Assembly: GCA_903922535.1 (NCBI GenBank)
Contig: CAIXUF010001271.1
Location: 1-42,910, forward strand
Length of the DNA stretch: 42,910 bases
Source: Candidatus Hydrogenedentota bacterium
Lineage (GTDB): Bacteria; Hydrogenedentota; Hydrogenedentia; Hydrogenedentiales; CAITNO01
Reading direction: 5' to 3'
Shown here: positions 4,971 to 40,846 of the stretch, one piece after another
Position numbering within the stretch: position 1 is the stretch's first letter
How the letters are laid out: the number at the start of each line of letters is the position of its first letter
Position numbers and translations under genes: made by a program
The notes under the pieces: model-generated
Databases searched by the model: none
The model's input: the letters and a program-made list of their open reading frames with translations, nothing else
Told to the model about the DNA's origin: nothing

Positions 4971-7900
4971 ATGAGGTACTTAGGCAGGCCCATTTTCGGC
5001 GTAATGGCATTTTGTCTGCTTCTTGCCGGCTGCCCACCCGCCGCCCAGAAGTACACGTTGACATACACGGCCGGGGCGAACGGCGCGATTTCCGGTGTTT
5101 CGCCGCAGTCGGTGAGTTCCGGCGCAAGCGGCACGGAGGTCACGGCAGTGCCCAATGCGGGGTACCGCTTTGTCTCGTGGAGTGACGGCTCGACACAGAA
5201 TCCGCGCACGGACACAAACGTGGCGGCCAATATCTCGGTGACCGCGGGCTTCACCAGAAACATAACCACGCCCACCGTCACCGCATGGCCCGCGGCCAGT
5301 GCCATCACCTACGGCCAAACCCTGGCGGCCTCGACGCTGACCGGAGGCGCGGCCTCTGTGGACGGAACCTTTGTGTTTGCCGCACCCGACACGGCGCCCG
5401 ACACCGGAACCTTCACGGCACCCGTGAAATTCACACCGGCAGACACATCCGCCTACACCACCGTGTCCGGCACGACAAGCGTCACCGTGGGCAAAGCCAC
5501 GCCCAGGATCATCACCTGGCCCGTTGCCAGCGCCATCACCTACGGTCAAACCCTGACGTTCTCCGTGCTGAGCGGAGCCGAGGTGCTTGTGTCCGGGATA
5601 CTTTCGTTTGCCGCGCCCGCCACCATGCCCGGTGCCGGGACGTACACGGCGGACGTGACCTTCACGCCCATGGACTCAAACAATTACACCACGGCGTCCG
5701 GCACAACAAGCGTCATCGTGTACAAAGCCACACCCAAAGTCACCTTCTGGCCCACCGCCATTGACATCACCTACGGCCAAACCCTGGCGGCCTCAACGCT
5801 GACCGGGGGGGCGGTCAATGCGGCCGGAACCTTTGCGTTTGCCGCGCCCAACACCGCGCCCGCCATCGGAAACCACACGGTGTCCGTAATGTTCACGCCC
5901 GAGGATGCCGCCGATTACAACACGGTGTCCGGCACGGCGAGCGTCACCGTGGACAAGGCCACGCCCACCGTCACCGCCTGGCCCACCGCCAGCGCCATCA
6001 CCTATGGCCAATCCCTGGCGGCCTCAACGCTGACTGAAGGCGCGGCCTCCGTGCCTGGAACCTTTGCCTTTGCCGCGCCCGCCGGCGTGCCCAACATTGG
6101 AACCTGCACGGCGTCCGTGATCTTCACGCCCGCGGACACGACGGACTACAAAACCGTGTCCGGCACGGCAGGCGTCCCCGTGGGCAAGGCCACGCCCACG
6201 GTCACCGTCTGGCCCACGGCCACGGCCATCACCTACGGCCAAACCCTGGCACACTCTGCGCTGACCGGAAGCACGGTCTCCGTTTCCGGAGTGCTTGAGT
6301 TCACCGCCCCCACCACCGTACCCGGTGTCGGGACCTATACGGCGGACGTGACGTTCACGCCTGTGGATACAACACATTACAACACGGTGTCCGGAACGGT
6401 AAGCGTCACCGTAAACAAGGCCACGCCCGCCGTCACCGCCTGGCCTGCGGCCGACGCCATCACTTACGGCCAAACCCTGGCGGCCTCAACGCTGACCGGG
6501 GGCACGGCCTCCGCGGCCGGAACCTTTGCGTTTGCCGCGCCCGACGCCGCGCCCGGCACCGGAACCTGCACGGCGTCCGTGACCTTCACGCCCACGGACA
6601 CCGTCGATTACAACACGGTGTCCGGCACAGTAAACGTCACCGTGGGCAAGGCCACACCCACGGTCACCGCCTGGCCAACGGCAAGCGCCATCAACTACGG
6701 GCAAACCCTGGCGTCCTCCATCCTGACCGGCGGCGCGGCCTCGGTGCCCGGAACCTTTGCCTTTACCGTTCCCAACGGCATCCCCGACGCCGGAACAACC
6801 CCGGTGCCCGTGAAGTTCACACCCACGGATACGGCCGATTACACCACCGTGTCCGACATGGTAAATGTCAGCGTTGGCGTCAAGTCTTTCGTGAAACCAG
6901 GCGGAACCGGCAACGGCAGTTCCTGGGACAATGCGCTGGGCTCCATCCAGAGCGCCGCGGACACCATGGACTCCGTCGGCGGCGGAGAGGTGTGGGTGGC
7001 CGCCGGCACCTACACCGCCGCGAAAGACCCCGTCGTCCAGCTCCGGCCCCATGTCGCCGTCTACGGAGGCTTCACCGGGACGGAAACGAGCCGGGACGCC
7101 CGCGATTGGGAGGCCAACACCACCATCATTGACGGTCAGTCCGCGCGCCGATGCGTTATTGGCGAAAACAATGCAACCCTCGACGGCTTCACCGTCCGGA
7201 AAGGGCATGCCAGCGGCAATGGCGGCGGCATGTACAACACCGTCTTTTCTCCGACGGTGGCCAACTGCACCTTTGCGGAAAACAATGCGGCCGCGGACGG
7301 CGGCGGCATTTGCAACGAAGGCGCATCGCCAACCTTTGACAACTGCGCGTTTTCCGGAAACACGGCCATGGCCAACGGCGGGGCCATGTACAACATCTCC
7401 TCCGAGCCGACACTGGCCGCCTGCTCCTTTACCGGAAACTCGGCGCCCTCGGGCAATGGCGGCGCCATGTACAACGCGGGCGGCGGCGGAACGATGACCA
7501 ACTGCGACTTTGCCCGGAACACGGCATCCTCCACCGGCTATGGGGGCGGAATTGTCAACCATTCCTCGTCGCCCACGGTGACCGACTGCACCTTTGACCA
7601 GAACTCGGCCGGATGCGCGGGGGGAATGTACAACTACTCCTCTTCCACGCCCACGGTGACCAACTGCACCTTTACGCTAAACGGGGCAACCACCAACGGC
7701 GGCGGAATGTGCAACCAGGATTCCTCCCCCAGGGTGGACGGCTGCGACTTCACGCAAAACGAGGCGACCTCCAAGGGCGGCGGAATGTGCAACCAGGATT
7801 CCTCCCCCACGGTGACCGACTGCACCTTTACGGGAAACGCGGCAAGCTCCGACGGCGGTGGAATGTGCAACCAGAATTCCTCCCCCACGGTGGACGGCTG

Positions 7901-8516
7901 CACGTTTAGGGAAAACACGGCAGACTACGCCGGGGGAATGCTTAACTCCTCCTCCGCGTCCACGGTGAAGAACTGCACCTTTGCCAAGAACGCCGCAGGC
8001 TACGCGGGAGGGATATACAATCACGACGCCGAGGGTGTGACCGTCACCAACTGTGTGTTTGTTGGAAACACCGCCGCCGGAAGGACGACTGAAAATCATG
8101 GCGGCGGAATGTGCAACGACGGTTCTTCGCCCACGATAATGAACTGCACCTTTGCCGGGAACAGCGCCGACTACGGCGGTGCAATGGTCAACCAAACCGC
8201 TTCGCCAAGCGTGACCAACTGCATTCTATGGGGGGATTCGGCCGCGTCCGAAGGCAATGAAATATACAATATTCTGCCCGACGCCTCCGCGACGGTGACC
8301 TATTCGTGCATCAAGGGCGGCAGCGCCGGCACCGGCAACATTTCGACCGATCCGCTGTTTGAGAATGCGGACGACGGCAATGTCCGTCTGCAGGCCGGTT
8401 CCCCGTGCATCGACGAGGGCACGGAGACAGGTGCGCCGGACACGGACATTGACGACACTCCGCGCACGCACGGCGCCGGATGCGACATGGGTGCATACGA
8501 ATACAGCGACGACTGA
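4971..8516 (+). CDS. Giant surface lipoprotein: tandem MBG-type repeats plus beta-helix
   Basis: A 1181-residue exported lipoprotein. The signal peptide ends in the lipobox LLAGC with lipidated Cys21. Residues about 27-95 look like a divergent InlB-type bacterial repeat domain (GYRFVSWSDGS). Residues about 100-638 are seven 77-residue repeats with core ITYGQTLAASTLTGG and ending FTPxDTxxYxTVSGT, which resemble MBG-type Ig-like repeats. From about 643 (VKPGGTGNGSSWDNA) the protein becomes a right-handed beta-helix with about 13 GGGMYN...NCTFxxNxA repeats of the polymorphic-outer-membrane-protein kind. The C-terminus GCDMGAYEY matches the end of choice-of-anchor Q proteins. It is probably displayed on the cell surface as an adhesin or carbohydrate-binding scaffold; no catalytic motif is evident. 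It stands alone, convergent with the sigma fusion gene downstream. Confidence 0.85.
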   Translation: MRYLGRPIFGVMAFCLLLAGCPPAAQKYTLTYTAGANGAISGVSPQSVSSGASGTEVTAVPNAGYRFVSWSDGSTQNPRTDTNVAANISVTAGFTRNITTPTVTAWPAASAITYGQTLAASTLTGGAASVDGTFVFAAPDTAPDTGTFTAPVKFTPADTSAYTTVSGTTSVTVGKATPRIITWPVASAITYGQTLTFSVLSGAEVLVSGILSFAAPATMPGAGTYTADVTFTPMDSNNYTTASGTTSVIVYKATPKVTFWPTAIDITYGQTLAASTLTGGAVNAAGTFAFAAPNTAPAIGNHTVSVMFTPEDAADYNTVSGTASVTVDKATPTVTAWPTASAITYGQSLAASTLTEGAASVPGTFAFAAPAGVPNIGTCTASVIFTPADTTDYKTVSGTAGVPVGKATPTVTVWPTATAITYGQTLAHSALTGSTVSVSGVLEFTAPTTVPGVGTYTADVTFTPVDTTHYNTVSGTVSVTVNKATPAVTAWPAADAITYGQTLAASTLTGGTASAAGTFAFAAPDAAPGTGTCTASVTFTPTDTVDYNTVSGTVNVTVGKATPTVTAWPTASAINYGQTLASSILTGGAASVPGTFAFTVPNGIPDAGTTPVPVKFTPTDTADYTTVSDMVNVSVGVKSFVKPGGTGNGSSWDNALGSIQSAADTMDSVGGGEVWVAAGTYTAAKDPVVQLRPHVAVYGGFTGTETSRDARDWEANTTIIDGQSARRCVIGENNATLDGFTVRKGHASGNGGGMYNTVFSPTVANCTFAENNAAADGGGICNEGASPTFDNCAFSGNTAMANGGAMYNISSEPTLAACSFTGNSAPSGNGGAMYNAGGGGTMTNCDFARNTASSTGYGGGIVNHSSSPTVTDCTFDQNSAGCAGGMYNYSSSTPTVTNCTFTLNGATTNGGGMCNQDSSPRVDGCDFTQNEATSKGGGMCNQDSSPTVTDCTFTGNAASSDGGGMCNQNSSPTVDGCTFRENTADYAGGMLNSSSASTVKNCTFAKNAAGYAGGIYNHDAEGVTVTNCVFVGNTAAGRTTENHGGGMCNDGSSPTIMNCTFAGNSADYGGAMVNQTASPSVTNCILWGDSAASEGNEIYNILPDASATVTYSCIKGGSAGTGNISTDPLFENADDGNVRLQAGSPCIDEGTETGAPDTDIDDTPRTHGAGCDMGAYEYSDD
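5268..6884 (+). repeat. Seven in-frame tandem repeats of exactly 231 bp
   Basis: The marker gccatcacct (or a close variant) recurs at 5301, 5532, 5763, 5994, 6225, 6456 and 6687, a constant 231-bp (77-codon) step. Copies are clearly related at DNA level but differ by substitutions, with no indels between them. This implies duplication or recombination between copies and selection for unit length. Confidence 0.95.
7219..8232 (+). repeat. About 13 short beta-helix coding repeats
   Basis: GG-G/A-M/I-x-N followed by T-V-x-x-C-x-F-x-x-N recurs roughly every 23-27 codons. Copies 7-9 (around 7690-7890) share the stretch GGGMCNQDSSP or GGGMCNQNSSP and are nearly identical in DNA, which points to recent local duplication. 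Confidence 0.9.
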
Positions 8517-8732: not shown

Positions 8733-11700
8733 TCACATCGCCGGAGAATTCACGCCGCCGCTGCGCGTCTCATCCGCTTTTTCTGAGTACTCGACCAGGA
8801 TTCTTCGGGTCCCGTTCTCCGTCAGGGAAATCGTCTGTATTTCCGCGCGGTCTTGGGAGGCCGCGTCGCTGACGGCGAATATTCTCAGGCGGGACATGCC
8901 GGACCGGTATGTGGACACGCCGAGGTGGTATTCGCCGGGCTGAAGGCCGGTCATGCGAAAGGTGCCGTCCGTTTCCAGGTCAATCCTTGGCCCCATCATC
9001 CCGCTTGATGTCTCCATCAAGCCGATGAATGCATGGGGCGGCGCTGTTCCGTCGGCAAGTACCTGCCCTTCCAATGAAGCCGTGCCCGGTGAAACCGCCA
9101 CATCCACCGCCGTGTCCTGTCCGGCCACAACGGTTACGGTCGCCGTGCCCCCCGCGTTGGTCTCCGTTTCGCTCGCGTGGACAGTCACCTCCGTTTCCCC
9201 CGGCGGGGCATTTTGAAACACAGCCTCTCCGTCGCGCGTCCCGACAGACCCCATTCTGTCTTCCCCGCCCGGCACCCGGCATGCCGCGACAAAACTGGAC
9301 AGGGGCTTTCCGTCCAGAGACGCATGCACCAGCAGGCGGCCCGTTTGTTTGAGCACGATGTCCAGCGGCGCGCCGCTTCCGGGCGTGACAGCCACACGCT
9401 CGGTTGCATATCCGTTGCAGGACACGGTGATCTGGGTTTCCTGGCCTGCGGCAAGCCCCTCGATGGCAAAGGTTCCGGCGGCGTCGCTGGTGACCGGCAT
9501 CACGCCGGGGGCGGAAACCTGCGCGGAAGCGACCGGTTCGCCGGCTTCGTTGCGCACCATCCCCGTCACCGGCGCGCCCGTCTGCAGTTCAACGGCAAGC
9601 GCGGTTTCCTGTCCGCCGGCCGGATCGGCGATGTCGGCGGACCACGCGGCATAGCCCGCCGCCCTGACTTCCACGTGGGTCGGAAACGCGAGCACCTTTT
9701 CTATGCGGAACCCGCCCAGCGGGTCGGAGAAGCCGCGTTCGCCGGACTCGATCCCGTTTGTGTCGAAGGGCATCTGCATCATGGCGTGATAGGCGACCGT
9801 AAAGTCTTTGACCGGCGCCTTCAGTTTCGCATCCACCACGGTGCCGACCAGGGTGACATAGTCCGAAAGGGCGATCTTGACGCTCCTGTTTCCGGCGTCC
9901 ACGCCCCGAACAACCGTGGGCGAATATCCGGGCGACATGACATACACATCGTACCGCCCTTCGGCAAGATCCTTGAAGGCGAACCGGCCCAGCGCGCCAG
10001 CGGTGGTCGCCTGCCGGGTGCCCAGCCCCAGCACGGCGAACGGGCAGGGCAGGCCGTTCGGATAGGAGACAACCCCTTCAATGGTCAGACGGCCCGCGGG
10101 AGCCTCCTGAAGGACCACATCGCGCACGACCGCATTGACGGGGACGCTCACGGGCGTCGCGGCAATGGGCTGGTACTGCAGCGAGGCGCTGACAATATAG
10201 TCTCCCGCCGAAAGCCCTTCCAGAACGAATTTTCCGGCGCTGTCGGTTCTGGAACTGCCGCCCCCGGCGAGCTGCACGGGTTCGCCGGCATCGCCCGCGG
10301 ACACGTTGATCATCGCGTTGTAGAGGGGTTTCTTCCTGCCGTCGAGCACGACGCCCTCAATGCGGCTGCCGGACAGAACCGTCAGGCGCAGGGTCAGTTC
10401 CTTCGCGGAAAACTCGGCGGGATCGATGGGGGTCGCCTCGCTTCGCATCGTCTTTGTCACGGCGGTCACGACAACTCTGCTCGAATCCTTCAGCGCCAGG
10501 GCGAAGGAACCGTCCTCGGCGGACTTGGTTTGATCATACTGCCCGCCGCGCATGAACACTTCGGCGGCCGCTGGTTTTCCGTTCACGTCCACCACGCGCC
10601 CGGCCAGCATTAATGCGGGTTCGAGCAGGATGTCCTTGTCCTCGAGCGTCTCACCCAGTTTCAGGTTGACGGTCATCGGTTCCCGGTTGGACCGATCAAA
10701 AGATCGCCCGGCCTCGCACCTGATTTCGTAGGTGCTTGCGGGCAGTCCGGTGAAAATATAATCCCCGGCGGCGCCGGTCTTGAGGTGACGGGACACGCTC
10801 ACTTCTCCGCGCATGGAATACAGGGACATGTCGGCATCCGCCACGCCTTCCCGGGTCTTGGCGTTCAACACGCGGCCGTACAGGGTCCCGCCGGTCTGCA
10901 CCGCAAGCTCCACCTGCGCCGTGCCGCCCGACGTGACCACCGCCGTGGTGTTCGGGCTGCTCAACACAAGCGCCGCATCGTTCAAGGAGAACGCGTAGGA
11001 GGCCGGCGGCATCGCGTCGATCTGGAAAGTGCCCTCTTCATTCGACGTGAACTTGTACTGCATCCGGTAGGAGTACCCCTCCTCGTCACTGTAACCGCTT
11101 GGCTCGCCCAAATGCGCCATCCCCTTGACCTTTGCCCTGGGTCGTCCCGCGCTGTCCACTATGCGGCCCGCAAGGGTTCCGGGGTCCTGGATAACGAGTC
11201 GGCTTTGAAGCCCGAAACAGGGGAAGTAATCCGAGTAGTACGGCTCATGGCCGGGGGCGACCACGTAGAGTTTCCAGCGTCCGGGGATGATGCCCGGGAA
11301 CTGAAAACGGCCCTGATCATCTGTGGAGGCCCGAAGCCCTGCGATCCGGGCATGGCTGAATTCCTCGCGGGGGAACAGCTCATGCGAGACGGGGTAAATC
11401 GCCGCCCCGGCCACCGGTTTGCCGCCGGCATCCTGCAAGAGGCCGTACGAGCTTATGAAGGGATACATCTTTATATTCGGAAAGTGTCTGGAGCCCGCAT
11501 CTCTCAGGGTAATGTCGGTTGCGCCGCCGAAGATCCGGGTCTTCGCGGTGATGCAGTATTTGCCGGGGGGCAGTCCCGCAAACGTGAAGGTGCCGTTTGC
11601 GTCGGCCATGGTGACCCACCGTTCCGTTTCCGGAGGCGGCAGTTCCCGGGCCGCCCAAGTGATTCGTTCCGCAACGACCTCGGCGTTTCCGATGGTCTGG

Positions 11701-12635
11701 TCGAGCGGGGTGGCCAGAACGCTGGAGTATGTGAACAGGGGTTCGTCTTTCTCTCCCTCCCCTTCCCCTGCTGTTTCGTTGAGCGCGGCGGCGGCGGCCG
11801 CTTCGGCAGGAACGGGCGCAACGGTCTTTTCCGTCACGCCGGCCTTTGCCGTCATGGTTCTCGGGACGGGCAGATCCGGTTTCCATCCCATCACCGTGGG
11901 CGCCGCAAAAAGCGCCCCCGCGGAAAGCGCGGCAATTCCCGCCCCCACACCGGCCAGTTTGAGCGCGCCCATGGCAAGCGTGGCGATCATGCCGTAGGCC
12001 GGGACCGTTTTCCACGCCGCGCCCGCGGCCAGCACCGCAGCGGTAATCGTCCTTGCGCGTTTCTTCCACGCGGAGGCCGTGGGGGCGTCGGGCACAAGCT
12101 TGAGGAACTCCGCGCCGAGCGCCTCGCGGGCCCGCTGAAGCCGTTTGCCCGCGGCAAGCCGGTTGATGCCCTTGATCCGTCCGATTTCACGGAGGGAGCA
12201 CCCCCCGTAATAGTGCATGAGCAGCAGTTCCCGGACTTCTGGATCGAGATCCATCAGCGTCGCGTGAAGCATCTGCTGCATCTCTTTGCGATCCGGCGCC
12301 GGCTCGTCCCGGTGCAGCGCCTCGGCCATGGCCTCCTCCAGGGGAACCTCCCGCGAACGGCTGCGCTGCCAGTTGAGCGCGGCGTGCCGGGCAATCGCCA
12401 TCAGCCACCCGGCAAACTTCTCCGGCGCCTTCAGCGTGTCCAGTTTCTGGTAGGCGGCCAGGAAACACTCCTGCGACACGTCATCCGCATCGGCAGGATT
12501 CTTCAGAATCCCCCGCGCCACCGACAACACGGCGGGCAGATAGCGCCGGACAAGCACGCCGAAATCATTGCGCCGACCCGAAAGTACCCTCCGGACCACA
12601 TATTCATCAGAGCGTGTCCACAATAGCGCGAGCAT
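8733..12635 (-). CDS. Membrane-tethered ECF sigma factor with exported carboxypeptidase-regulatory-like repeats
   Basis: A 1300-residue fusion. Residues about 22-95 are a good sigma region 2 (ADADDVSQECFLAAYQ; FAGWLMAIARHAALN). Residues about 120-178 are sigma region 4 with an HTH (LREIGRIKGINRLAAGKRL). Hydrophobic stretches at about 195-207 and 214-246 should anchor it in the membrane. After an acidic linker (GEGEGEKDEP) come about eleven beta-sandwich repeats with the pattern GxFxFxGLPPGxY, typical of carboxypeptidase regulatory-like domains, presumably outside the cytoplasm. Sigma factors with large C-terminal membrane extensions are known in Planctomycetes and relatives; release of the sigma part by proteolysis is an inference. 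AAAAGGAG precedes the ATG. No anti-sigma gene is adjacent, so the protein may regulate itself. Confidence 0.88.
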   Translation of the reverse strand: MLALLWTRSDEYVVRRVLSGRRNDFGVLVRRYLPAVLSVARGILKNPADADDVSQECFLAAYQKLDTLKAPEKFAGWLMAIARHAALNWQRSRSREVPLEEAMAEALHRDEPAPDRKEMQQMLHATLMDLDPEVRELLLMHYYGGCSLREIGRIKGINRLAAGKRLQRAREALGAEFLKLVPDAPTASAWKKRARTITAAVLAAGAAWKTVPAYGMIATLAMGALKLAGVGAGIAALSAGALFAAPTVMGWKPDLPVPRTMTAKAGVTEKTVAPVPAEAAAAAALNETAGEGEGEKDEPLFTYSSVLATPLDQTIGNAEVVAERITWAARELPPPETERWVTMADANGTFTFAGLPPGKYCITAKTRIFGGATDITLRDAGSRHFPNIKMYPFISSYGLLQDAGGKPVAGAAIYPVSHELFPREEFSHARIAGLRASTDDQGRFQFPGIIPGRWKLYVVAPGHEPYYSDYFPCFGLQSRLVIQDPGTLAGRIVDSAGRPRAKVKGMAHLGEPSGYSDEEGYSYRMQYKFTSNEEGTFQIDAMPPASYAFSLNDAALVLSSPNTTAVVTSGGTAQVELAVQTGGTLYGRVLNAKTREGVADADMSLYSMRGEVSVSRHLKTGAAGDYIFTGLPASTYEIRCEAGRSFDRSNREPMTVNLKLGETLEDKDILLEPALMLAGRVVDVNGKPAAAEVFMRGGQYDQTKSAEDGSFALALKDSSRVVVTAVTKTMRSEATPIDPAEFSAKELTLRLTVLSGSRIEGVVLDGRKKPLYNAMINVSAGDAGEPVQLAGGGSSRTDSAGKFVLEGLSAGDYIVSASLQYQPIAATPVSVPVNAVVRDVVLQEAPAGRLTIEGVVSYPNGLPCPFAVLGLGTRQATTAGALGRFAFKDLAEGRYDVYVMSPGYSPTVVRGVDAGNRSVKIALSDYVTLVGTVVDAKLKAPVKDFTVAYHAMMQMPFDTNGIESGERGFSDPLGGFRIEKVLAFPTHVEVRAAGYAAWSADIADPAGGQETALAVELQTGAPVTGMVRNEAGEPVASAQVSAPGVMPVTSDAAGTFAIEGLAAGQETQITVSCNGYATERVAVTPGSGAPLDIVLKQTGRLLVHASLDGKPLSSFVAACRVPGGEDRMGSVGTRDGEAVFQNAPPGETEVTVHASETETNAGGTATVTVVAGQDTAVDVAVSPGTASLEGQVLADGTAPPHAFIGLMETSSGMMGPRIDLETDGTFRMTGLQPGEYHLGVSTYRSGMSRLRIFAVSDAASQDRAEIQTISLTENGTRRILVEYSEKADETRSGGVNSPAM

Positions 12636-12673
12636 GAGATGGTCTCCTTTTGCTCTTAAGACACACTAACACG

Positions 12674-12683
12674 CCAAGTGTTG
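12674..12683 (-). promoter_or_regulatory. Possible ECF-type promoter element of the sigma fusion gene
   Basis: On the minus strand CAACACTTGG is followed after about 13 bases by TCTTAA, reminiscent of the ECF -35 (AAC core) and -10 (TC) elements. The same 10-mer occurs upstream of the proline-rich protein gene at 22544-22553. This is a pattern only; no test was possible. Confidence 0.25.
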
Positions 12684-12807
12684 ACATCTCGAATGCGGTG
12701 GAGGAACTCGAACAATGACCCAGTTTTTGTACCGCAGGCGTCTCCCCTGCCCTGGTCTTGACCGCGGCTCAACGCAACGGCAAGGAAGAACAAGGCGAGA
12801 CCCGGTT

Positions 12808-12833
12808 GTGGCGTGGTTTCCAGACCACGCCAC
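12808..12833. repeat. Perfect 10-bp inverted repeat
   Basis: GTGGCGTGGT (12808-12817), a 6-base loop and ACCACGCCAC (12824-12833). It lies in the 392-base spacer between the divergent sigma fusion and GH95-like genes. CGCTCTTTTGA follows it and recurs at 12969-12979. Confidence 0.6.
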
Positions 12834-12906
12834 GCTCTTTTGACCGAAGGTCTCCTCTTCCTTTCGCGGTCTCCCCTTTCGCTGTGCATCCGCCGCGCGG
12901 GACAAA

Positions 12907-12941
12907 GGGCGAAGTACGAAGGGCGAAGTACGAAGGGCGAA
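12907..12941. repeat. Direct repeat of 14 bp, two and a half copies
   Basis: GGGCGAAGTACGAA at 12907-12920 and 12921-12934, then a partial third copy. A similar purine-rich run (AAGGACGAAGGACGAA) lies upstream of the Nudix gene near 38231-38246, so this looks like a genome-wide simple repeat family found before genes. Confidence 0.65.
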
Positions 12942-12974
12942 AAGAGGAGGGAAGCGGCACAACGATCCGCTCTT

Positions 12975-13003
12975 TTGAACGATCCCCGGATAATATGGAT
13001 ACT
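12975..13003 (+). promoter_or_regulatory. Candidate sigma-70 promoter of the GH95-like gene
   Basis: TTGAAC (12975-12980), a 17-bp spacer and GATACT (12998-13003), 24 bases before the ATG. Each box matches the consensus at four of six positions. Confidence 0.4.
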
Positions 13004-13027
13004 TTGGGGCACAATCCGGAGAAACTA

Positions 13028-15337
13028 ATGATGATGACACTATGTTTATTGGCGGCGGTGACGGCCTCGACCTTGGCGCAGGAGGTGCAGCCGACGGCAG
13101 CGCAGGGGCTGCACTACGACAAGCCCGCGATGGTGTGGGACGAGGCCATGCCGCTGGGCAACGGCCTCTTGGGCGGGCTGGTCTGGGGCGACGGGAAACC
13201 GATCAAGATCTCGCTGGACCGCACCGATCTGTGGGACCTGCGGCCCGTGCCCGAATTCCACAGCAAAGACTATAACTACAAGACCATGCGCGAGTGGGAG
13301 AAGTCCGGGCGCGTGGAGGACCTTCTGGCGATGTACGACAACCCGTACAACCGCCCCGCGCCCACCAAGATCCCCGCAGGCCGCATCGAATTGACCTTTC
13401 CCGACGGCTGGAGCGCGGTTCCGGCCAGCCTCGATCTGGCCAAGGCCGAGGCAAAATGCGGTGACCCCGCCGGGAACGCGTCCCTGTCCGTCTGGATTCA
13501 CGCGACGGAACCGGTGGGCTTTATGGAACTGTCGGGGACGCTGCCCGCGATCAAACTGGCCGCGCCCGCCTTTGCGGGCGGGGAACCGGGCGACGGCAAG
13601 CCCGCCATCTCGGCCGGTGACCTGAAACAGTTGGGCTATCCAGCACCCAAGACGGCCGAAGGGGCCGATTTCCAATCCTACGAGCAGGAAGGCTGGGGTG
13701 GATTCCGCTGGGCCGTGTTCCTGACCTGGATGAAGGTGGACAACAGCAACCCGGCGCAGGCAGGCGAGACGCCTGCGGTACACACTGACCGTTGGCAGGC
13801 CGCATGGTCCATTGCCACAACCAATGAGAACTCCGACCCGCTGGCGCTGGCTGAGAAACGCGCGCGTGGCGGTCTGCAAAACATTGAGGCGCTGCGGACC
13901 TCACATCAGGCGTGGTGGCACAAGTGGTGGGAAGACACCTGGCTGGAAGTGCCCAACGCCGCCGTGGAGCGGCAGTGGTACCTGGACACCTACAAGTTCG
14001 GCGCGGCCGCGCGGCGCGACACGCCGCCCATCACCCTCCAAGGGCCCTGGACGGCCGACGACGGCAAGTTGCCCCCCTGGAAGGGCGACTACCACCACGA
14101 CCTGAACACGGAACTGAGCTACTGGCCCTGCTACAGCGGCAACCGGCTCGAACAGGGCCTGGGTTACCTCAACTGGCTGTGGGACACGCGGGAAAACGCC
14201 CGCGACTGGACCAAGCGCTTCTTTGGCGTGCCGGGGATCAATGTGCCCATGACGGCCGACATCAAGCAGGACCAGATCGGCGGATGGCGCCAGTACACCC
14301 ACTCGTCGACCACCGGCGCGTGGCTCGCCCACCATTTCTATCTGCACTGGAAATACAGCCAGGACCGCAATTTCCTGGAACAGCGCGCCTACCCGTGGCT
14401 GCGCGACTGCGCCATCTTTGCGGAGAACATCACCAGCGAGCGCGACGCCAACGGCAAGCGCACGCTGCCGCTCAGCTCCTCGCCCGAAATCAACGACAAC
14501 CGGCCCAATGCGTGGTTCCCGGCCATCACCAACTACGACCTCGCGCTGTTCCGCTGGCTCTTTGGCGCGATGGCCGAACTGGCCGACGAAATCAACAGCC
14601 ATGACGAGGCCGTGCATTGGCGCGCCCTCCTTGACGAACTGCCCGGTTTCGCCCTCGGCGACGACGCACGGCTGCTCATCGCGCCCGACTATCCGCTCAA
14701 GGACTCGCACCGCCATTTCTCGCACCTCATGTCCATCTACCCGCTCGGGCTGATAGACCTGTCACAGGGCGAGAACTGCAAGATCACCATCGACGCGTCG
14801 CTCAACGAACTGGACCGGCTCGGCTCCAGCCAGTGGTGCGGCTACAGTTTCGCCTGGCTGGCCGGTCTGGCCGCCCGCGATCATGACGGCGTGAAGGCGG
14901 AGAAGGCACTGGACACCTTCGCCAACGCCTTCGTGCTGCGCAACGGGTTCCACTGCAACGGCGACCAGAGCGGCAGGGACTTCAGCAAGTTCACCTACCG
15001 TCCCTTCACGCTGGAGGGCAATTTCGCCGCCGCTGCCGGTTTGCAGGAAATGCTCATCCAGAGCCATGCAGGCGCAATAGAGGTGTTCCCCGCCATCCCC
15101 GACACATGGAAGGATGCGCGGTTTCACCGGCTCCGCGCCATGGGCGCGTTCGTCGTCTCCGCGGAAAAGAAGGACGGCGAAGTGCAGTTCATTGAGATCC
15201 TGAGCGAGACCGGCAAGGCCCCCGTTGTCCGCTCCCCCTGGTCCGGCGCAATCTACGCCCTGGAAAAGGGCGTGTCCCCGTCCGGCATCCGCGTCAGCAA
15301 CCAGGGCGACCTCTGGCGCATCGAAGCGGCGCAATAG
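13028..15337 (+). CDS. Secreted GH95-like glycoside hydrolase (alpha-L-fucosidase family)
   Basis: A 769-residue exported enzyme. The signal peptide MMMTLCLLAAVTASTLA precedes a GH95-type N-terminal beta domain with the hallmark AMPLGNGLLGGLVWG, then the (alpha/alpha)6 barrel. Barrel motifs seen are DLNTELSYWP (substrate-binding region), SSSPEIND, SHRHFSHLMSIYPLG and LEGNFAAAAGLQEML. Near the C-terminus AIEVFPAIPDTW matches the family. Where classical GH95 fucosidases have QIDGNFG this protein has TLEGNFA, so a catalytic-site aspartate appears to be replaced by glutamate and substrate specificity may differ. I start at ATG 13028 because GGAG lies at 13018-13021 and the signal peptide begins there; the open frame extends further upstream without support. 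It likely acts on fucose- or galactose-containing glycans in the periplasm or outside the cell. Confidence 0.85.
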   Translation: MMMTLCLLAAVTASTLAQEVQPTAAQGLHYDKPAMVWDEAMPLGNGLLGGLVWGDGKPIKISLDRTDLWDLRPVPEFHSKDYNYKTMREWEKSGRVEDLLAMYDNPYNRPAPTKIPAGRIELTFPDGWSAVPASLDLAKAEAKCGDPAGNASLSVWIHATEPVGFMELSGTLPAIKLAAPAFAGGEPGDGKPAISAGDLKQLGYPAPKTAEGADFQSYEQEGWGGFRWAVFLTWMKVDNSNPAQAGETPAVHTDRWQAAWSIATTNENSDPLALAEKRARGGLQNIEALRTSHQAWWHKWWEDTWLEVPNAAVERQWYLDTYKFGAAARRDTPPITLQGPWTADDGKLPPWKGDYHHDLNTELSYWPCYSGNRLEQGLGYLNWLWDTRENARDWTKRFFGVPGINVPMTADIKQDQIGGWRQYTHSSTTGAWLAHHFYLHWKYSQDRNFLEQRAYPWLRDCAIFAENITSERDANGKRTLPLSSSPEINDNRPNAWFPAITNYDLALFRWLFGAMAELADEINSHDEAVHWRALLDELPGFALGDDARLLIAPDYPLKDSHRHFSHLMSIYPLGLIDLSQGENCKITIDASLNELDRLGSSQWCGYSFAWLAGLAARDHDGVKAEKALDTFANAFVLRNGFHCNGDQSGRDFSKFTYRPFTLEGNFAAAAGLQEMLIQSHAGAIEVFPAIPDTWKDARFHRLRAMGAFVVSAEKKDGEVQFIEILSETGKAPVVRSPWSGAIYALEKGVSPSGIRVSNQGDLWRIEAAQ

Positions 15338-15735: not shown

Positions 15736-18687
15736 ATGAACAGAACCGTTTGCCGCGGGCGTGTGAAAGCCGCATTTCGCCTGAACAGACACCTGACCGC
15801 AGTGGCCTGTTCTCTCGCGTGTGTGTTGGCTGTGGCGGGCTGTGCCAACAAGACCCCGCCGGCCGATGTGTCGAGTTTCAGCGCAACCGCCGGGGACAAG
15901 CAGGTTGTCCTGACGTGGACGCTCCCGTCGGACGCCAATTTCAGCGGCGTCAAGATTCAGCGAAAGACCGCCACGGCGCCGACCTCCGCGACGGACGGCA
16001 CCACCGCCTATGACGGCGCCGGCGCAACGTTCACTGACACAAACCTGGACAACGGGCAGACTTACTGCTACGGGGCGTACGCGTACAACGCCAGCCACAT
16101 CTACTCGGCAGGGGTGCAGACATCGGCCCTGCCGACCAGCGCCACAGCGCAGGCCGAGACACTCTCGGAATTGGCCGATCTCAAGACCAGCGTGTCCTCG
16201 TTCCCCAGCACGGTCTTTGATGACCCGGCGAAGGCCGCGCTCGAAGGGGATTTGGCGCAAATCGACGGGCTGTACCGTGCCGGTGACATTTGCGGGGCGG
16301 CCGACGCGACCAAGACATACCTGGCCGATCTTCAGGGTCTTCGCCATGACGCATCAAAATCCGTCGCGGAGATTCTGTACAACTCGGGCCGGATGCTCCG
16401 GTACGACATGCTGTCAACGGCGTCCGCAAAGGCATTGTGCGCGGACAGTGCGCGGATCGGCACGGAAGCCGCCGCCGATCTGAATCCGGCCACGTCGGAT
16501 CTGGGCCAGGTCGAGGCAACGTTCAGCTTCGGCGAGCCGAAAGTCTTCACCGCCCAGGGCGACGGCGAGGTGTACACCACCCTGAACCTGCCGGGGCTCA
16601 GCACGGGCACGACCGACGTGGGGCTGCCGGCCATTCCCGTGGTGACGCGGCTGGTTGCGGTTCCGGACGGCGCCACCGTGGAGACCTCCGTGACGGTCGA
16701 TGAGGCGGAACAGATCCTGCTGAACGCGCTTCCGACGCAGGAGCCCGGCATCGCATCATCGCAGCAGCCCGGGGTAATGCGTGACATTGCGCCGCCGCCT
16801 TTCACCAAGGATGAGGCCTTCTACGCGCAGGACGCGCTTTACCCGCCGAACACGGCGACCGTTTCGGACCTTGGGAGCGCGCGCGGCCTGCACATTGTCC
16901 GCCTGGATGTTCCGGCCGGACAATTCAACCCCGCAACCAACACGCTGCACCTTTTCAAATCCAGCAATGTAAAGCTCACATTCACGGGCGGCCAGGGGAC
17001 CTATGGGACCTATGACCCGTCGAACCTTTTCGAGCCGCTGCAGACGGTGCAGAACGCGCTGCTGCTCAATTCGCCCGTGCTGGTGAACCTTAAGCCGCAG
17101 CCGTTCAAGGGCAGCAAGGAAGGCGCGGAACTGCTGATTGTCACGCACGCCAAGTTTCTGGAATCGGCCAACACGCTTGCGCAGTTCAAGACGAACTCCG
17201 GCATAATCACCAATGTGGTTCAGGTCGGGCTCAACGCCGCGATGCCCTCATCGGCGGATATCCGCAATCTGATTGTGAACTACTGGAACAACAGCCAGAT
17301 AAAGTTCTCCTATGTGCTGCTTGTCGGCGACGTGAACTATATCGCACCGTATTATTTCATCGGCGGGAAAGGCACGGGGCCGGGGGGCGAACCGTGGCCG
17401 CCTTCCGACTTCGCCTACTCCACGCTCGGGGATCCGGCAGCCCTGTCCACGTCCGACTGGGTCGTGGGACGCCTTCCGGTGAACGAAACCGCCGAGGCGG
17501 ACGCGGCGGTCAACAAGATCATCGATTACGAGAAGAACCCCCCGACCTCGGCCGATTTCTACAAGCACGTCACGCTGTGCACCGATTTCGAATGCTGCCA
17601 GCAGCCGCTCTATGGTTTTCCGGGACTGTTCGACTTCAACCCCCCGCTGTTGCAGGGGGTGGAACAGCAGCCGTTCCTCAAGCCGCTCGAGACCGCCAAG
17701 GGCGTCCTGGAATCCCGGGGATTCAATGTGCAGCGGCTCTATATTGAATCGGTGGACGCCGGCGATCCGCACGCCACCCCGCCCAGGCCCGCGTACACCG
17801 CAGACATGGCCCCCCGGGCCTTCTGTGACGGAAGCCTGCTTCCCGCGGACATCGGAAGCAATCCTCCCGGACAGGAGTATGCGGCTTCGGAAACGGCCAA
17901 ATTGACAACGGCCTGGAATGAGGGCCGAATCTTCATCTTCTACAACTCCCACGGCTACTGCAACGGGCCCGGATGGTGGGGGACGCCGTTTGCCTACTGG
18001 GATGCGGACGGGCTTGCACAAGACAAACCGCTGCCCGTGGTCTTCAGCACCACGTGTGACTCCGGTTTCTACGATCTGGAACTCAACCCGTCCTGCGACC
18101 CCATCACCGCAAACCCCTGCTTTGCCGAAGAGTTGATTCGGGCCGACCGGCGCGGCGCGGTGAGCATTATCGCCGCCCCGCGCGAAACGCTCATCTACGT
18201 CAACGGCCATCTTACGGAGGGCTATGCCAGCGCGATCAAGTATTTCGGGACAACCACCAAGATGCGGCTTGCGGACGTGTTCCTGTGGGGCCAGGGGTGG
18301 GTTGTCGGTTCGTGCGATTCCAACGACGCCCGGACGCACAACCACCTGTACCACATATTCGGGGATCCGTCCCTGCGCATCCGCATGCAGAAACCGCCCG
18401 TCACCCTGGTTACGACAGGGGTGAAGGTGTTGTTGCCGGCGGCGGGGCACCTGACAGTGAACTTCCCCACGGACGGCGTGACGATAACGGCATATCTCAA
18501 CGGGGTGAGCAACCAACCGGTTCCCGTGGGCCGCGGCATCGTCAAGGATGGCGTGGCCACGCTGCAAATGTTGACCACGCGGTTTGCCAACACCGTTGCC
18601 GTGGGAAGCACTCTCCAGCTTGTGGCAACGCATCCGGACGCGCTGCCGGTTTCCGTCCAGGCCTCGGTGGAGCAACCAGCATTGTAA
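15736..18687 (+). CDS. Gingipain-type (C25) cysteine peptidase lipoprotein
   Basis: A 983-residue lipoprotein. The signal peptide ends in LAVAGC with lipidated Cys36. A fibronectin type III-like domain follows at about 42-140 (DKQVVLTWTLPSD), then a helical segment, then the propeptide-like region (AIPVVTRLVAVP) and the C25 catalytic domain at about 465-890. The His of YNSHGYCNG is residue 739 and the Cys of FSTTCDSGFY is residue 774, the His-Cys dyad spacing seen in gingipains. HIFGDPSLRIR closes the domain, again typical of C25 members. AGAGG precedes the ATG. The substrate is unknown; no type IX sorting domain is obvious at the C-terminus, and lipid anchoring is the clear export signal. 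It sits just upstream of the sigma-like membrane protein, so one could speculate that it processes surface proteins that are sensed there. Confidence 0.87.
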   Translation: MNRTVCRGRVKAAFRLNRHLTAVACSLACVLAVAGCANKTPPADVSSFSATAGDKQVVLTWTLPSDANFSGVKIQRKTATAPTSATDGTTAYDGAGATFTDTNLDNGQTYCYGAYAYNASHIYSAGVQTSALPTSATAQAETLSELADLKTSVSSFPSTVFDDPAKAALEGDLAQIDGLYRAGDICGAADATKTYLADLQGLRHDASKSVAEILYNSGRMLRYDMLSTASAKALCADSARIGTEAAADLNPATSDLGQVEATFSFGEPKVFTAQGDGEVYTTLNLPGLSTGTTDVGLPAIPVVTRLVAVPDGATVETSVTVDEAEQILLNALPTQEPGIASSQQPGVMRDIAPPPFTKDEAFYAQDALYPPNTATVSDLGSARGLHIVRLDVPAGQFNPATNTLHLFKSSNVKLTFTGGQGTYGTYDPSNLFEPLQTVQNALLLNSPVLVNLKPQPFKGSKEGAELLIVTHAKFLESANTLAQFKTNSGIITNVVQVGLNAAMPSSADIRNLIVNYWNNSQIKFSYVLLVGDVNYIAPYYFIGGKGTGPGGEPWPPSDFAYSTLGDPAALSTSDWVVGRLPVNETAEADAAVNKIIDYEKNPPTSADFYKHVTLCTDFECCQQPLYGFPGLFDFNPPLLQGVEQQPFLKPLETAKGVLESRGFNVQRLYIESVDAGDPHATPPRPAYTADMAPRAFCDGSLLPADIGSNPPGQEYAASETAKLTTAWNEGRIFIFYNSHGYCNGPGWWGTPFAYWDADGLAQDKPLPVVFSTTCDSGFYDLELNPSCDPITANPCFAEELIRADRRGAVSIIAAPRETLIYVNGHLTEGYASAIKYFGTTTKMRLADVFLWGQGWVVGSCDSNDARTHNHLYHIFGDPSLRIRMQKPPVTLVTTGVKVLLPAAGHLTVNFPTDGVTITAYLNGVSNQPVPVGRGIVKDGVATLQMLTTRFANTVAVGSTLQLVATHPDALPVSVQASVEQPAL

Positions 18688-19052
18688 CGGCCAACAAACG
18701 ACAGCATACCCGCGGTTTGGCGGCGCCGGAAATGATCAGACAGCCATCAGGGGGCGGTGCCGCGCGTTGAAGGAGGACCGCGGCCAATATCGGTGAACGA
18801 CAGGCGCGGCCGCCAACCGCACCTTTTTCCGAACGCCTGCGGGCGGCCCATTCATGGCCAGTTCCAGCGATCCGGTCCGGTCTTCAACTGTCCCATCGTG
18901 GGACTTGACCCTGTGTGCCGCCTCTCGCATAATGGTGGCTGTTGGGGCACCGTGCGGCCATTCCCCTCCGCAGGAGCCCTTTGTCGCGCGGGAGCAAGGT
19001 GTGTCTAGGCAGGCCCGGGCAGCGCCCGACAGGGCCGGAAGCAAGGGGCAAC
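18688..19052 (+). promoter_or_regulatory. Strong promoter and 113-base leader of the second sigma-like gene
   Basis: TTGACC (18905-18910), an optimal 17-bp spacer and CATAAT (18928-18933): five of six matches in each box, the best sigma-70 promoter I see in the window. Transcription would start near 18940, leaving a 113-base leader. The leader contains the hairpin CGGGC-AGC-GCCCG and an AAGGGG ribosome site before the GTG at 19053. The rest of the 365-base spacer holds no recognisable gene. Confidence 0.7.
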
Positions 19053-21254
19053 GTGTTCGGATTCGGCACAGCGAACAAAGAGAAGGCTGCGATACGGCGG
19101 ATCTTCAAGGGGCATCAGGATGCGTTCCGCCAGATCGTGGAGCAATATCAGCCGGTGGTGTACGCGATTGCCCTGGCCCAGTCCGGCAGCGTTGTCATTG
19201 CCGACAAGGCTGTCGTCGCCGCGTTCCGGCAGGCCTTTGAAAGACTGGTTTCCCTCACGGACGCCAGGCGTCTGGGCCACTGGCTGTGCGCCATTACCCA
19301 CAAGGAAACCGACCTGCTCACGGCGGCTCGCGGCAACGGCCGCCTCAAGCCGCGGGATCGCGACCCCTCGGCAAAACTGGTTGATCTCGCCTGGCTCCAG
19401 TCGGAGTTGATTGACCCGCTCAACGAGGAGCTGGGACCGTTCTCCCTGCAGCAGCGCAAGGGACTGCTGCTCAGCGTGCTGTGCGGCGCCACCCCGCGCA
19501 CCATCGCCGACTACCTCAAGATTGACGCCAAAGAGGCCGCCGAAAACCTGGCGCGCACCCGCGAAAAGCTTGACAGGAAATTCCTGCGCGAAGTAGCCGG
19601 CGCGCTCGCCCCCGAGATAAACAGCAAGGAGCGCATGGTCCACATCATGCGCGAGGTCGCCGGTGACGCGGCCGCCATCAAGGCCGCGCGGGAGACCCAC
19701 CTGGGCCGGTCCGGGGGCTGCGGGCGTTCCCTGTTTATGGGTGCGGCCGCACTGCTCCTGCTGGCCGCCGCCGGATTCTACGTGCACAGGGCCTATTTTA
19801 CCCCGCCCGGGCAGGCGCCCCTCCAGACGCCATGGTCGTCCACCGAGCCGGCCGAACAGGAAACGCCGGCGCCCAGCAACTATTCCCTCAGCGGCCGCGT
19901 CGTGGACCGGCGCTTCCTCAACGGCATCCCCGGCCTGACCGCCAGCGCGGGGGACAAGTCGGCCGAAACGGACTCCTTCGGCGGCTTTGAAATAAAGGAC
20001 GTGACCCGCGGCGAGTACGAGGTGGTGATCTCCCATAATGGTGAGGTGCTCTCCAAGGGCAACATCATGCACACGGAGAAACGCAACGCGAAACTGCAGA
20101 TCGACGTGACGGACAAGGTGCCCGCGCGCTTCACCTTCCGCGCCAGGGTCACCGACGCCAAGACCGGCCAGGCCCTCCCCAGCTTCGAGACCGCGGCCTG
20201 CAAAGACGCGCAGCAGATGATGCCGCCCTACCTGCTCAACGAGTTCCAGCCCCAGTCCAATCCCGACGGCCTGCTGGTGGACCGGTATGTGACCTATGGC
20301 ACCTATTCCCTCTATGTCCGCGCCGAGGGCTATGCGCCCCTGCCCAGCACGGTCAACATCGGCGACGGATGGAACAACGACACGGTGCATGAAGTGCGCC
20401 TGCTGCGCGCCGCCACCATCCAGGGCCGCGTCTACGGCGCCAACGAACTGACCATACAGGACGCGCGCATCATGCCGCGCGAGGGCAACCCGGAGAGTCT
20501 CGCGCGCAACCGGATTTTCTACGCCACCACCGACGCCAACGGGCTCTTCGCCATCTCCGGCCTGCCCGTCGGCGTGAACTGGTTCCTTGTTGACCACCGC
20601 TCTGGCGGCATTGCCCACGCCGTCGTCGTCAGCGAACCGGGCAAGGTCACCGAGATCAAAATCCAGATGCCCAAAAAGGGTTCACTGACCGGCGACATCA
20701 CCGTGGACGGTTGTCCCTCCAAATTCAGCCAGTTCCGCGTCGCCAACGGCATGGTCGCTGGCAACCGCCTGGTGGAGCCCCAGTACAATTCGCCCGGCGC
20801 CTATGAGGTGCCCAAACTCCCGCCCGGAGAGCTGACCATCCTCGCCAGCGTCGCCCCGCCGGACGGCGCGCCCTGGTTTGACCGCGTCTACGTCCGCAAC
20901 ATTACCCTGGACCTGGACCAGCCGACCTGGCTTGACTTCAACTACGCCACCGGCGCCAACAAACTTGCCGGCGCGGTCACCCTGCGCGGCGCGCCCCCCA
21001 AGTCCGCCTTCGTCGAACTGAGCCTGTTCCGGCCCGACGCGGCCAATGTCGAGCGCCTCTATTTCGACATCGGCGCAACCGGGGCCTTCACCGTTGGCAA
21101 TCTGCCCGCGGGCAAAGGCGAGGTGACGGTGTACTGCTCCAACAAGGCCATGGGCAAGCCGGACTTTTCCGCCTCCCGCGGCTCCATGGAAAAATCCACC
21201 AAACCTTTCGAGTTCGTCGAGGCCCGCGACATCCGGCTCGATTTTGCCCTGTAG
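19053..21254 (+). CDS. Degenerate sigma-like membrane protein with exported carboxypeptidase-regulatory-like repeats
   Basis: A 733-residue protein with the same plan as the 1300-residue sigma fusion at 8733-12635. Residues about 15-95 follow sigma region 2 (AFRQIVEQYQPVVYAIAL; LGHWLCAITHKETDLL) and residues about 125-180 follow region 4 with an HTH-like ATPRTIADYLKIDAKEAAENL. The acidic core-binding signature of region 2.2 (usually DAEDLVQE) is replaced by IADKAVVAAF, so binding to core RNA polymerase may be lost or changed. One clear membrane segment lies at about 226-243 (LFMGAAALLLLAAAGF). At least four beta-sandwich repeats follow (GGFEIKDVTRGEYEVV; GLFAISGLPVGVNWF). I choose GTG 19053 because AAGGGG lies just upstream; the open frame reaches 18942. 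Function is unknown; an anti-sigma-like or sensory role is inference. Confidence 0.75.
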   Translation: MFGFGTANKEKAAIRRIFKGHQDAFRQIVEQYQPVVYAIALAQSGSVVIADKAVVAAFRQAFERLVSLTDARRLGHWLCAITHKETDLLTAARGNGRLKPRDRDPSAKLVDLAWLQSELIDPLNEELGPFSLQQRKGLLLSVLCGATPRTIADYLKIDAKEAAENLARTREKLDRKFLREVAGALAPEINSKERMVHIMREVAGDAAAIKAARETHLGRSGGCGRSLFMGAAALLLLAAAGFYVHRAYFTPPGQAPLQTPWSSTEPAEQETPAPSNYSLSGRVVDRRFLNGIPGLTASAGDKSAETDSFGGFEIKDVTRGEYEVVISHNGEVLSKGNIMHTEKRNAKLQIDVTDKVPARFTFRARVTDAKTGQALPSFETAACKDAQQMMPPYLLNEFQPQSNPDGLLVDRYVTYGTYSLYVRAEGYAPLPSTVNIGDGWNNDTVHEVRLLRAATIQGRVYGANELTIQDARIMPREGNPESLARNRIFYATTDANGLFAISGLPVGVNWFLVDHRSGGIAHAVVVSEPGKVTEIKIQMPKKGSLTGDITVDGCPSKFSQFRVANGMVAGNRLVEPQYNSPGAYEVPKLPPGELTILASVAPPDGAPWFDRVYVRNITLDLDQPTWLDFNYATGANKLAGAVTLRGAPPKSAFVELSLFRPDAANVERLYFDIGATGAFTVGNLPAGKGEVTVYCSNKAMGKPDFSASRGSMEKSTKPFEFVEARDIRLDFAL

Positions 21255-40388: not shown

Positions 40389-40519
40389 GACGTGCCTTTC
40401 CTGAGTTTCTTCGACAAGATGATTATGCCGTCCCCGGCGGGGAAATGCGAACGGGTGGCAACCCCTTGCAGATTTGCCGGGGAATGTGGTTAGATTGATG
40501 TGCAGACAGGAACAGGACA

Positions 40520-40846
40520 ATGAACACCACATCGACAGAACTTGCCATCGCAGAGGCGGTTCGGCGGATTGTCACGGAGACTCAGCCGAGGCGGGTGATT
40601 CTGTTTGGCTCCGCCGCGAGGGGCGAGATGGGTCCGGACAGTGATCTCGATTTTCTGGTGGTCATGTCCAACGGGGCAGACTGTCTTTCCGTCACCGGCC
40701 GCATCCACCGCATTCTGCGCGGCCTCGGCTGCCCCAAAGACGTTGTGGTTGTGCTGGAAAAGGACATGGCCGCACATGCGCACAATCCCGCGTTAATCAT
40801 CCACACGGCGTTGACAGAAGGCCGGGAACTCTATCATGCAGCCTGA
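40520..40846 (+). CDS. MNT-type nucleotidyltransferase (antitoxin-like)
   Basis: A 108-residue minimal nucleotidyltransferase of the polymerase-beta superfamily. The signature LFGSAARGEMGPDSDLDFLVV at about 28-48 has the GS-x10-D-x-D arrangement that binds magnesium and nucleotide. Such MNT proteins usually form toxin-antitoxin pairs with a HEPN ribonuclease encoded directly downstream, which they modify or block. Here the downstream gene is reduced to a stub (40836-40872), so MNT appears orphaned. A TTAGAT box at 40490-40495 and an AGGAACAGG site lie upstream. The key residues are intact, so it could still be active. Confidence 0.87.
   Translation: MNTTSTELAIAEAVRRIVTETQPRRVILFGSAARGEMGPDSDLDFLVVMSNGADCLSVTGRIHRILRGLGCPKDVVVVLEKDMAAHAHNPALIIHTALTEGRELYHAA

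Follow-up and report, generated by a model that had tools for sequence, protein, structure and literature searches.

A predicted transmembrane ECF sigma factor with its own promoter, and a sigma-like paralogue, in Candidatus Hydrogenedentota

The window analysed here, the whole 42,910 nucleotides of contig CAIXUF010001271.1 from a Candidatus Hydrogenedentota bacterium, encodes on its reverse strand (8733-12635, -) a 1300-residue protein in which a sigma factor of the extracytoplasmic function (ECF) type, a predicted membrane helix, and a long CarboxypepD_reg ectodomain form one chain, as judged from its open reading frame (ORF, with an ATG start), Pfam, and homologues. Computationally, the domain plan and the intact sigma residues are plain, the self-promoter is conserved, and the protein is conserved across a family. 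The explanation that best fits the whole, and which I hold with moderate confidence, is that this protein is a functional ECF sigma factor, synthesised with a single membrane pass, freed by proteolysis, and self-activating.

Domain plan and self-promoter

Pfam places Sigma70_r2 (PF04542; 62.4 bits, cut-off 24) at residues 28-95 (12351-12554, -), Sigma70_r4_2 (PF08281; 36.5 bits, cut-off 25.7) at residues 121-173 (12117-12275, -), and eleven stretches of CarboxypepD_reg (PF13620; 244 bits, cut-off 32.3) in beta-sandwich-like repeats that span approximately residues 301-1260 (8856-11735, -). All three families are over their cut-offs and there is one main membrane segment, which confirms a sequence-only reading of this DNA that had put ECF regions 2 and 4, an anchor, and about eleven repeats in one 1300-residue chain. 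The protein also scores 81.0 bits with TIGR02937 (sigma70-ECF; cut-off 42.9), and its 87.3 bits with TIGR02989, the Rhodopirellula/Verrucomicrobium sigma subfamily, fall short of the cut-off of 124.55.

An AlphaFold model, restricted to residues 1-480 and given an alignment of 24 sequences as input, has a predicted template modelling score (pTM) of 0.44, too low to define how the parts are arranged. The sigma part nevertheless consists of confident helices, with block predicted local distance difference test values (pLDDT) of 82-92 over most of region 2 and 71-85 in region 4. Low-confidence helices at 187-205 and 217-248 follow, then a low-confidence linker at 261-296 (pLDDT <50) that belongs to an Ala/Pro/Glu-rich stretch (residues 252-300; 11736-11882, -), and beta domains from 301. 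Region 2 of the model fits 4lup, E. coli sigmaE region 2 on -10 DNA, with a TM-score of 0.91 by target length and a root-mean-square deviation of 1.3; in Foldseek, the two sigma regions together match sigmaE, SigW, and AlgU at 0.47-0.50 by target length, and the first modelled repeats match pilin and adhesin domains.

The sigma domain itself looks functional, on the indirect evidence of its residues, its slower evolution, and its promoter, which agrees with the sequence-only reading of regions 2 and 4 as intact. It keeps D52, Q55, E56, W77, R83, K164, and R165, signature residues of regions 2 and 4 that I take to have roles in core and DNA contact. Among the 59 extended sequences compared, picked because they resemble the window protein or have long frames, D52 is D or E in 59/59, Q55 is Q in 53/59, and R165 is R in 59/59. 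Identity to the three closest relatives is 80-86% over residues 1-260, versus 68-70% overall.

Ahead of the gene stands an ECF-type promoter found by pattern scan, GTCAACA (-35), N16, GTCTT (-10) (12658-12685, -), which ends 22 nucleotides 5' of the ATG and lies immediately 5' of a likely ribosome-binding site (AAGGAG, 12644-12649, -, 8 nucleotides 5' of the ATG). Usual ECF elements are AAC at -35 and CGT at -10 (PMC3426412), and the window gene is preceded by an AAC-type -35 and a CGT/GTC-type -10. I counted the exact form GTCMACA-N16-GTCWW in the genes with enough upstream DNA (51 extended, 17 short, and 14 pseudo-sigma, the last described below). It occurs before eight of the 51 extended genes, those of the window protein and seven relatives, and before none of the 17 short ECF or 14 pseudo-sigma genes, while 300 shuffles of the extended upstream set gave a mean of 0.007 and a maximum of 1. 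All eight sites end 21-24 nucleotides ahead of the aligned start, and the spacers are mostly unrelated, two genes (L102 and L103) being near-copies. A relaxed form adds L085 and L090. This conserved self-promoter argues for a working, self-activating sigma factor, and I consider self-activation likely. It would also offer a direct readout of whether the membrane part restrains the sigma domain.

Other targets do not stand out. The GTCAT form has 10 sites in six whole genomes (39.8 megabases), five of which precede the orthologue of the window gene; in the sixth genome (G042) a GTCTA form lies 5' of the homologue. The backward-read control pattern has four sites in the same genomes, so the five non-self sites are at about the control level and no regulon wider than the gene itself emerges. 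Within the window the only exact match is the self site, and three one-mismatch sites are near chance (0.85 expected in all). As for a general promoter of all extended sigma genes, which I also considered, gapped-word enrichment was no better than in shuffles, and a loose pattern found before 14/52 extended genes (shuffles: mean 4.3, maximum 13), 3/17 short genes, and 0/14 pseudo-sigma genes was likewise set aside.

Membrane topology and proposed release

The hydrophobicity profile peaks at residues 213-251, and the hydrophobic region as a whole (196-251) is too long for one anchor, which made a test of the topology necessary. I scanned for membrane segments by insertion energy, on an approximate scale. 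The window protein has one main segment, which lies at 225-245 with a marginal +0.69; the runner-up upstream of it is at +4.2. A segment at about 225-246 is likewise the best candidate in each of 24 aligned sequences (-5.1 to +1.1), versus +2.7 to +5.5 for the best upstream segment in the same rows, and W208 and K226 are invariant in this alignment. Together with the hydrophobicity and the AlphaFold model, this places the predicted membrane helix at residues 227-246 (11898-11957, -), directly after K226. Thus the anchor of the sequence-only reading survives as a single main segment, although the hydrophobic region around it exceeds one anchor. Further support comes from the family of a paralogue in the same window, in which 15/15 rows have an excess of K/R on the N-terminal side of the helix (N30 5-9, C30 0-3) and the 15 rows have one segment with negative insertion energy.

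A single pass with the N-terminus inside and the repeats outside is therefore the best topology, supported mainly by homology to the paralogue family rather than proven, and the earlier claim that the repeats are exported stands to that extent; the window protein's own subfamily, with its weak charge bias and marginal energy, contributes less. The alternative is a hairpin in which residues 196-222 and 227-246 both cross the membrane, making the repeats a cytoplasmic scaffold or intracellular sensor. It would account for the second hydrophobic stretch at 196-222, for the weak positive-inside signal, and for the fact that energies of that stretch lie below those of soluble parts. I nevertheless regard it as improbable: the upstream energies are well above those of the main segment in all 24 rows, the AlphaFold model has one long helix (217-248, low confidence), the helix of the homologous paralogue is single and clear-cut, with K/R inside, invariant W208-K209 and K226 break up the stretch in the window protein, and CarboxypepD_reg is usually a secreted domain.

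Inhibition by anchoring, proteolysis, and an outside signal are the steps that I infer. The sigma domain (1-185) would be cytoplasmic, with a short juxtamembrane stretch running into the one helix, and the linker would display the CarboxypepD_reg array beyond the inner membrane. Pfam finds no FecR-like periplasmic anti-sigma domain in the protein, and residues 176-260 contain no Cys or His, hence no zinc anti-sigma motif; inhibition would therefore rest on anchoring or on the juxtamembrane helix (residues 187-205, of low model confidence and followed by W208; 12021-12077, -), a possible inhibitory segment and perhaps a latch. Because anchoring would hold the sigma domain off promoters, a separate anti-sigma factor would be unneeded, and in keeping with the sequence-only reading no anti-sigma gene is recognisable in a Pfam scan of 19 other ORFs that took in the immediate neighbours. 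A change outside (ligand, envelope tension, or loss of the array) would allow shortening of the ectodomain by a site-1-type protease, after which a site-2 protease would cut in or near the membrane helix. The freed sigma domain would join RNA polymerase and switch on the self-promoter, giving positive feedback with few other visible targets. Regulated intramembrane proteolysis, as for the Pseudomonas putida sigma factor IutY discussed below, would be the likeliest mechanism of release. A search for site-2 proteases, proposed with the original idea of proteolytic release, did find an M50 gene in 66/68 genomes of the phylum, but also in 14/14 control genomes, so its presence discriminates nothing.

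Several observations weigh against this explanation. The charge bias across the helix is weak in the window's subfamily (window protein: N30 2, C30 4), the helix energy of the window protein is marginal at +0.69, and the pLDDT of the membrane helix is low, about 38-51. The energies of the upstream stretch (+2.7 to +5.5) lie below the best values in the sigma (+6.3) and repeat (+5.5) parts of the window protein. L085, a nearer tree relative of the window gene, has the promoter in relaxed form only, and no site was found upstream of the tree relatives L082, L106 (where the upstream sequence is short), and L107. The gene is also patchy. Genomes G007-G009 are the closest to the window by DnaN (92-95% identity to the window DnaN, in the phylum of Candidatus Hydrogenedentota), yet their best matches to the 1300-residue protein are only 28-30% identical.

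The missing close orthologue in these nearest genomes is what one would expect of a sequence artefact, namely a chimeric contig or a chance fusion of sigma and surface-protein genes, which is refuted, to the point that I give it almost no weight, by the same architecture in 24 other aligned proteins and by homologues on other contigs with other neighbours. Decay of the sigma domain, leaving a mere surface protein and no polymerase subunit, seems to have occurred in the paralogue at 18942-21254; for the 1300-residue protein it is very improbable in light of the canonical residues, the conserved self-promoter, and the slow evolution of the sigma part. A sigma factor that acts while tethered deserves more attention, although I still think it unlikely. 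CadC and ToxR are activators that work at membrane-near promoters while tethered, and the intact protein might similarly recruit polymerase to such promoters, with the ectodomain acting by conformation or clustering. The scarcity of promoter sites would suit one membrane-near self-promoter, and window neighbours, proteases included, are not found beside homologues on eight contigs, bar one match 6 kilobases away. On the other hand, polymerase entry would presumably be harder from the membrane, and it is release that activates the characterised sigma/anti-sigma fusion (PMC8999054, PMC5411451), as the favoured explanation supposes for the window protein.

Family distribution and a pseudo-sigma branch

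A search for the same architecture across genomes, suggested with the sequence-only reading, was productive: 60 proteins match the 1300-residue protein, and the 25 aligned (the window protein included) comprise 24 full-length relatives of the same plan at 25-70% identity. Residues 1-260, searched against proteins of similar total length, gave 94 matches, some with other C-terminal parts. P0061 has the same N-terminal part with Sel1 repeats instead of CarboxypepD_reg, P0027 has a weak DUF1559 match in its C-terminal part, and others presumably carry sortilin/BNR-like modules, judging from their listed Pfam accessions. The few named sources among the 94 are Candidatus Hydrogenedentes, Poribacteria, and one Planctomycetes. 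Planctomycetes, among which the earlier reading placed known sigma factors with membrane-spanning extensions, are represented by one sigma-plus-CarboxypepD_reg protein of that name (P0116), the closest named relatives being Hydrogenedentota. Within the phylum, matches to the protein at E 1e-30 or better occur in 35 of 68 genomes, partly through repeats alone (best nine candidates per genome scored). Nine Hydrogenedentota genomes have 237 Sigma70_r2 matches; of the 233 listed, for which ORF lengths were transcribed by hand, 55 lie in frames of at least 650 residues, ranging from 23/58 in G055 to 0/9 in G010. It appears that one phylum uses a one-piece sensor-sigma design on a large scale.

To compare these proteins I used 91 of 98 sigma domain rows for a tree and for residue counts: 59 extended, 17 short, and 15 pseudo-sigma. 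The other seven were excluded as duplicates (L144, L161, and P0061), as fragments of a single broken gene (two rows), as a partial domain (one), or as the second ORF of a locus (one). In 59/59 extended proteins a hydrophobic 19-mer (mean Kyte-Doolittle at least 1.6) begins 32-98 residues past region 4 (median 51), a count that describes that set as selected. The 17 short ECFs, all from G001, end at most 15 residues past region 4; they come from 20 short-frame loci of that genome (one had no match, one was partial, and one was an extended protein already in the set), so that 17/17 describes this sample and not all ECFs. The extended state clusters strongly on the tree (3 changes versus 26.5 in shuffles). 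One branch of 49 rows contains extended (34) and pseudo-sigma (15) proteins only, and the other mixes the 17 short with 25 extended ones, which indicates repeated gain or loss of the extension. L094 (G001, contig C126) has a minimal form, with a sigma domain, a membrane segment, and approximately 55 residues after it, and IutY is trimmed to about 50 residues, a similar length to this tail (PMC5411451).

The window contains a second protein of this plan that the sequence-only reading had missed, P0119 (listed ORF 18942-21254, +, with the conserved part from about 19068, thus 19068-21254), composed of a degenerate sigma domain, one membrane helix (19731-19787, +, from the energy scan, with K/R excess on its N-terminal side), and CarboxypepD_reg repeats. 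Its sigma-like domain has no Pfam listing at E 1e-4 and matches NCBIfam sigma models weakly, at 25 bits at most; no receiver domain was found in the protein. Twenty-two of the 68 phylum genomes match it at E 1e-20 (best 15 candidates per genome scored), 16 strongly (E 1e-89 or better, one being a fragment) and six far more weakly. A protein search gave 28 relatives, most of them unnamed, one named ECF sigma factor, and the others 'specialized sigma24', CarboxypepD_reg, or hypothetical. Annotation thus hides this branch.

On the tree a long stem within the extended branch leads to the pseudo-sigma domains, which group as a single clade (support 100/100). D52 and Q55 are kept in 0/15 (they are mostly K and V), and in short and extended ECFs together the first is D/E in 76/76 and the second Q in 70/76. 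At K164 and R165, which are features of extended (46/59 and 59/59) more than of short ECFs, the pseudo-sigma domains have E and mostly D, respectively. Other residues are retained, with F58 and R168 in 15/15 and R170 in 12/15. Pfam Sigma70_r2 is detected in 3/15 members at E up to 1 (best 6.5e-4), the gene is absent from the complete Sigma70_r2 match lists of G008 and G012, and the family profile still recovers SigW from the PDB (E 2.4e-6). The P0119 model resembles anti-sigma-held sigma factors at 0.41-0.73 by target length (CnrH best), versus 0.29-0.39 for polymerase-bound ECFs, with no match below E 0.001 in this comparison. Among three close sequences the sigma-like part has a ratio of nonsynonymous to synonymous substitution rates (dN/dS) of 0.18-0.23, compared with 0.19-0.38 for the membrane part and 0.17-0.24 for the ectodomain.

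P0119 thus has a conserved sigma-like domain that probably no longer serves polymerase, and is probably a membrane-anchored sigma mimic. In PhyR an ECF-like fold acts as a mimic instead of being a polymerase subunit; P0119 is similar in having a sigma-like domain, with weak Foldseek matches to PhyR, and differs in being membrane-anchored and carrying outer repeats. The branch suggests that selection kept the sigma fold in a membrane protein after the signature residues were lost, and it raises the testable question of its binding partner. More tentatively, and with rather less confidence than I have in the sigma factor itself, one-piece transmembrane sigma switches may form a large class in Hydrogenedentota, every member having an outer array of its own and, in the window's subfamily, a self-promoter of its own. 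One branch of the class, with a member in the window, would have become a conserved transmembrane mimic that no longer serves RNA polymerase and acts by binding the partners of sigma domains, be it a latch, another sigma factor, or a protease adaptor.

Known systems and neighbouring genes

In canonical ECF systems the sensor and the sigma factor are two proteins (PMC8999054). One-piece sigma factors with membrane extensions are already known in IutY and ECF52. IutY (ECF243, Pseudomonas putida), the sole experimentally characterised case named by the review section concerned, is cut by Prc and RseP, which activates it and frees the sigma domain (PMC5411451, PMC8999054). Like IutY, the 1300-residue protein is a single polypeptide that combines an ECF sigma on the cytosolic side with an outer domain, with no separate anti-sigma factor (PMC5411451); unlike IutY, whose outer part is a periplasmic anti-sigma domain, it has approximately 1000 residues of CarboxypepD_reg, and none of the 19 window neighbours scanned with Pfam is a TonB-dependent receptor. 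For ECF52 (SCO4117, Streptomyces coelicolor), with ECF48 and ECF53, proteolytic release has been proposed and positive autoregulation suggested, and ECF52 combines an ECF sigma, a membrane region, a Pro-rich linker, and an outer putative ligand-binding module (PMC5826349). The window protein has a comparable membrane segment (predicted, of marginal energy) and Pro-rich linker; unlike ECF52, it has no zinc-finger anti-sigma motif between sigma domain and membrane, Pfam finds neither a zinc-finger family nor a carbohydrate-binding domain in it, and its host is not one of the Actinobacteria.

Planctomycete WD40-ECFs also join an ECF sigma to a large repeat domain, and some planctomycete ECFs were recovered in Triton or SDS fractions; the passages on WD40-ECFs concerned mention neither a self-promoter nor a pseudo-sigma branch (PMC8567305). 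The arrays differ, being CarboxypepD_reg here versus WD40 there, and Pfam finds no WD40 in the 1300-residue protein. The C-terminal domain of ECF41 is SnoaL-like; the extension of the window protein is instead membrane-anchored and of a different fold, with no SnoaL-like domain detected by Pfam. In ECF41 the C-terminal extension controls the sigma factor, a single target transcript is detectable, and the promoter TGTCACA-N16-CGTC resembles the GTCMACA-N16-GTCWW found here (PMC3426412). What is new here is the outer array, the lack of a zinc anti-sigma motif, the expansion in one phylum, the self-promoter, and, most novel, the pseudo-sigma branch; the literature covered, outside which lie the main ECF classification papers, contains no record of a CarboxypepD_reg sigma family or a transmembrane pseudo-sigma.

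The window has 142 ORFs of at least 100 residues. A GH95 glycoside hydrolase gene (12758-15337, +) is divergent from the sigma gene, and I considered it as a clue to a fucosylated ligand; I rejected this since GH95 is not beside sigma homologues on eight other contigs (two of which carry distant homologues only). With GH95 unlinked, CarboxypepD_reg a generic beta-sandwich, and Sel1 repeats in its place in P0061, the sequence-only idea that the ectodomain senses envelope or surface polymers finds no support. GH95 goes rather with the paralogue, as it adjoins the pseudo-sigma gene, directly upstream, in 2/12 loci (L192 in G008 and L190 in G009). In the window the two are separated by the gene of a gingipain-like C25 peptidase with a propeptide (15736-18687, +), directly upstream of the pseudo-sigma gene; as a candidate site-1 protease it was rejected, with no match on the eight sigma contigs or at the 12 pseudo-sigma loci. 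Of 16 other window genes compared with the eight sigma contigs, 38361-40532 alone matched, about 6 kilobases from the sigma gene in L130, and shared neighbours among these contigs are confined to the close pair L130/L131.

At five loci (L196-L200) the pseudo-sigma gene has a UvrD-like helicase-nuclease gene before it and, after it, a gene that belongs to a single BLAST cluster; two cluster members tested from these loci match alpha/beta hydrolases, and the member at L201 does not. A proline-rich protein with no Pfam match (21466-22602, -) has several copies in G008 and G009, and one G009 copy (C272) directly precedes an extended sigma gene; it was set aside for want of a clear tie. Finally, convergent with the sigma gene is that of a 1181-residue, exported-looking protein with a Flg_new_2 domain (4971-8516, +), in which tandem repeats of approximately 80 residues and a beta-helix-like end can be seen by eye.

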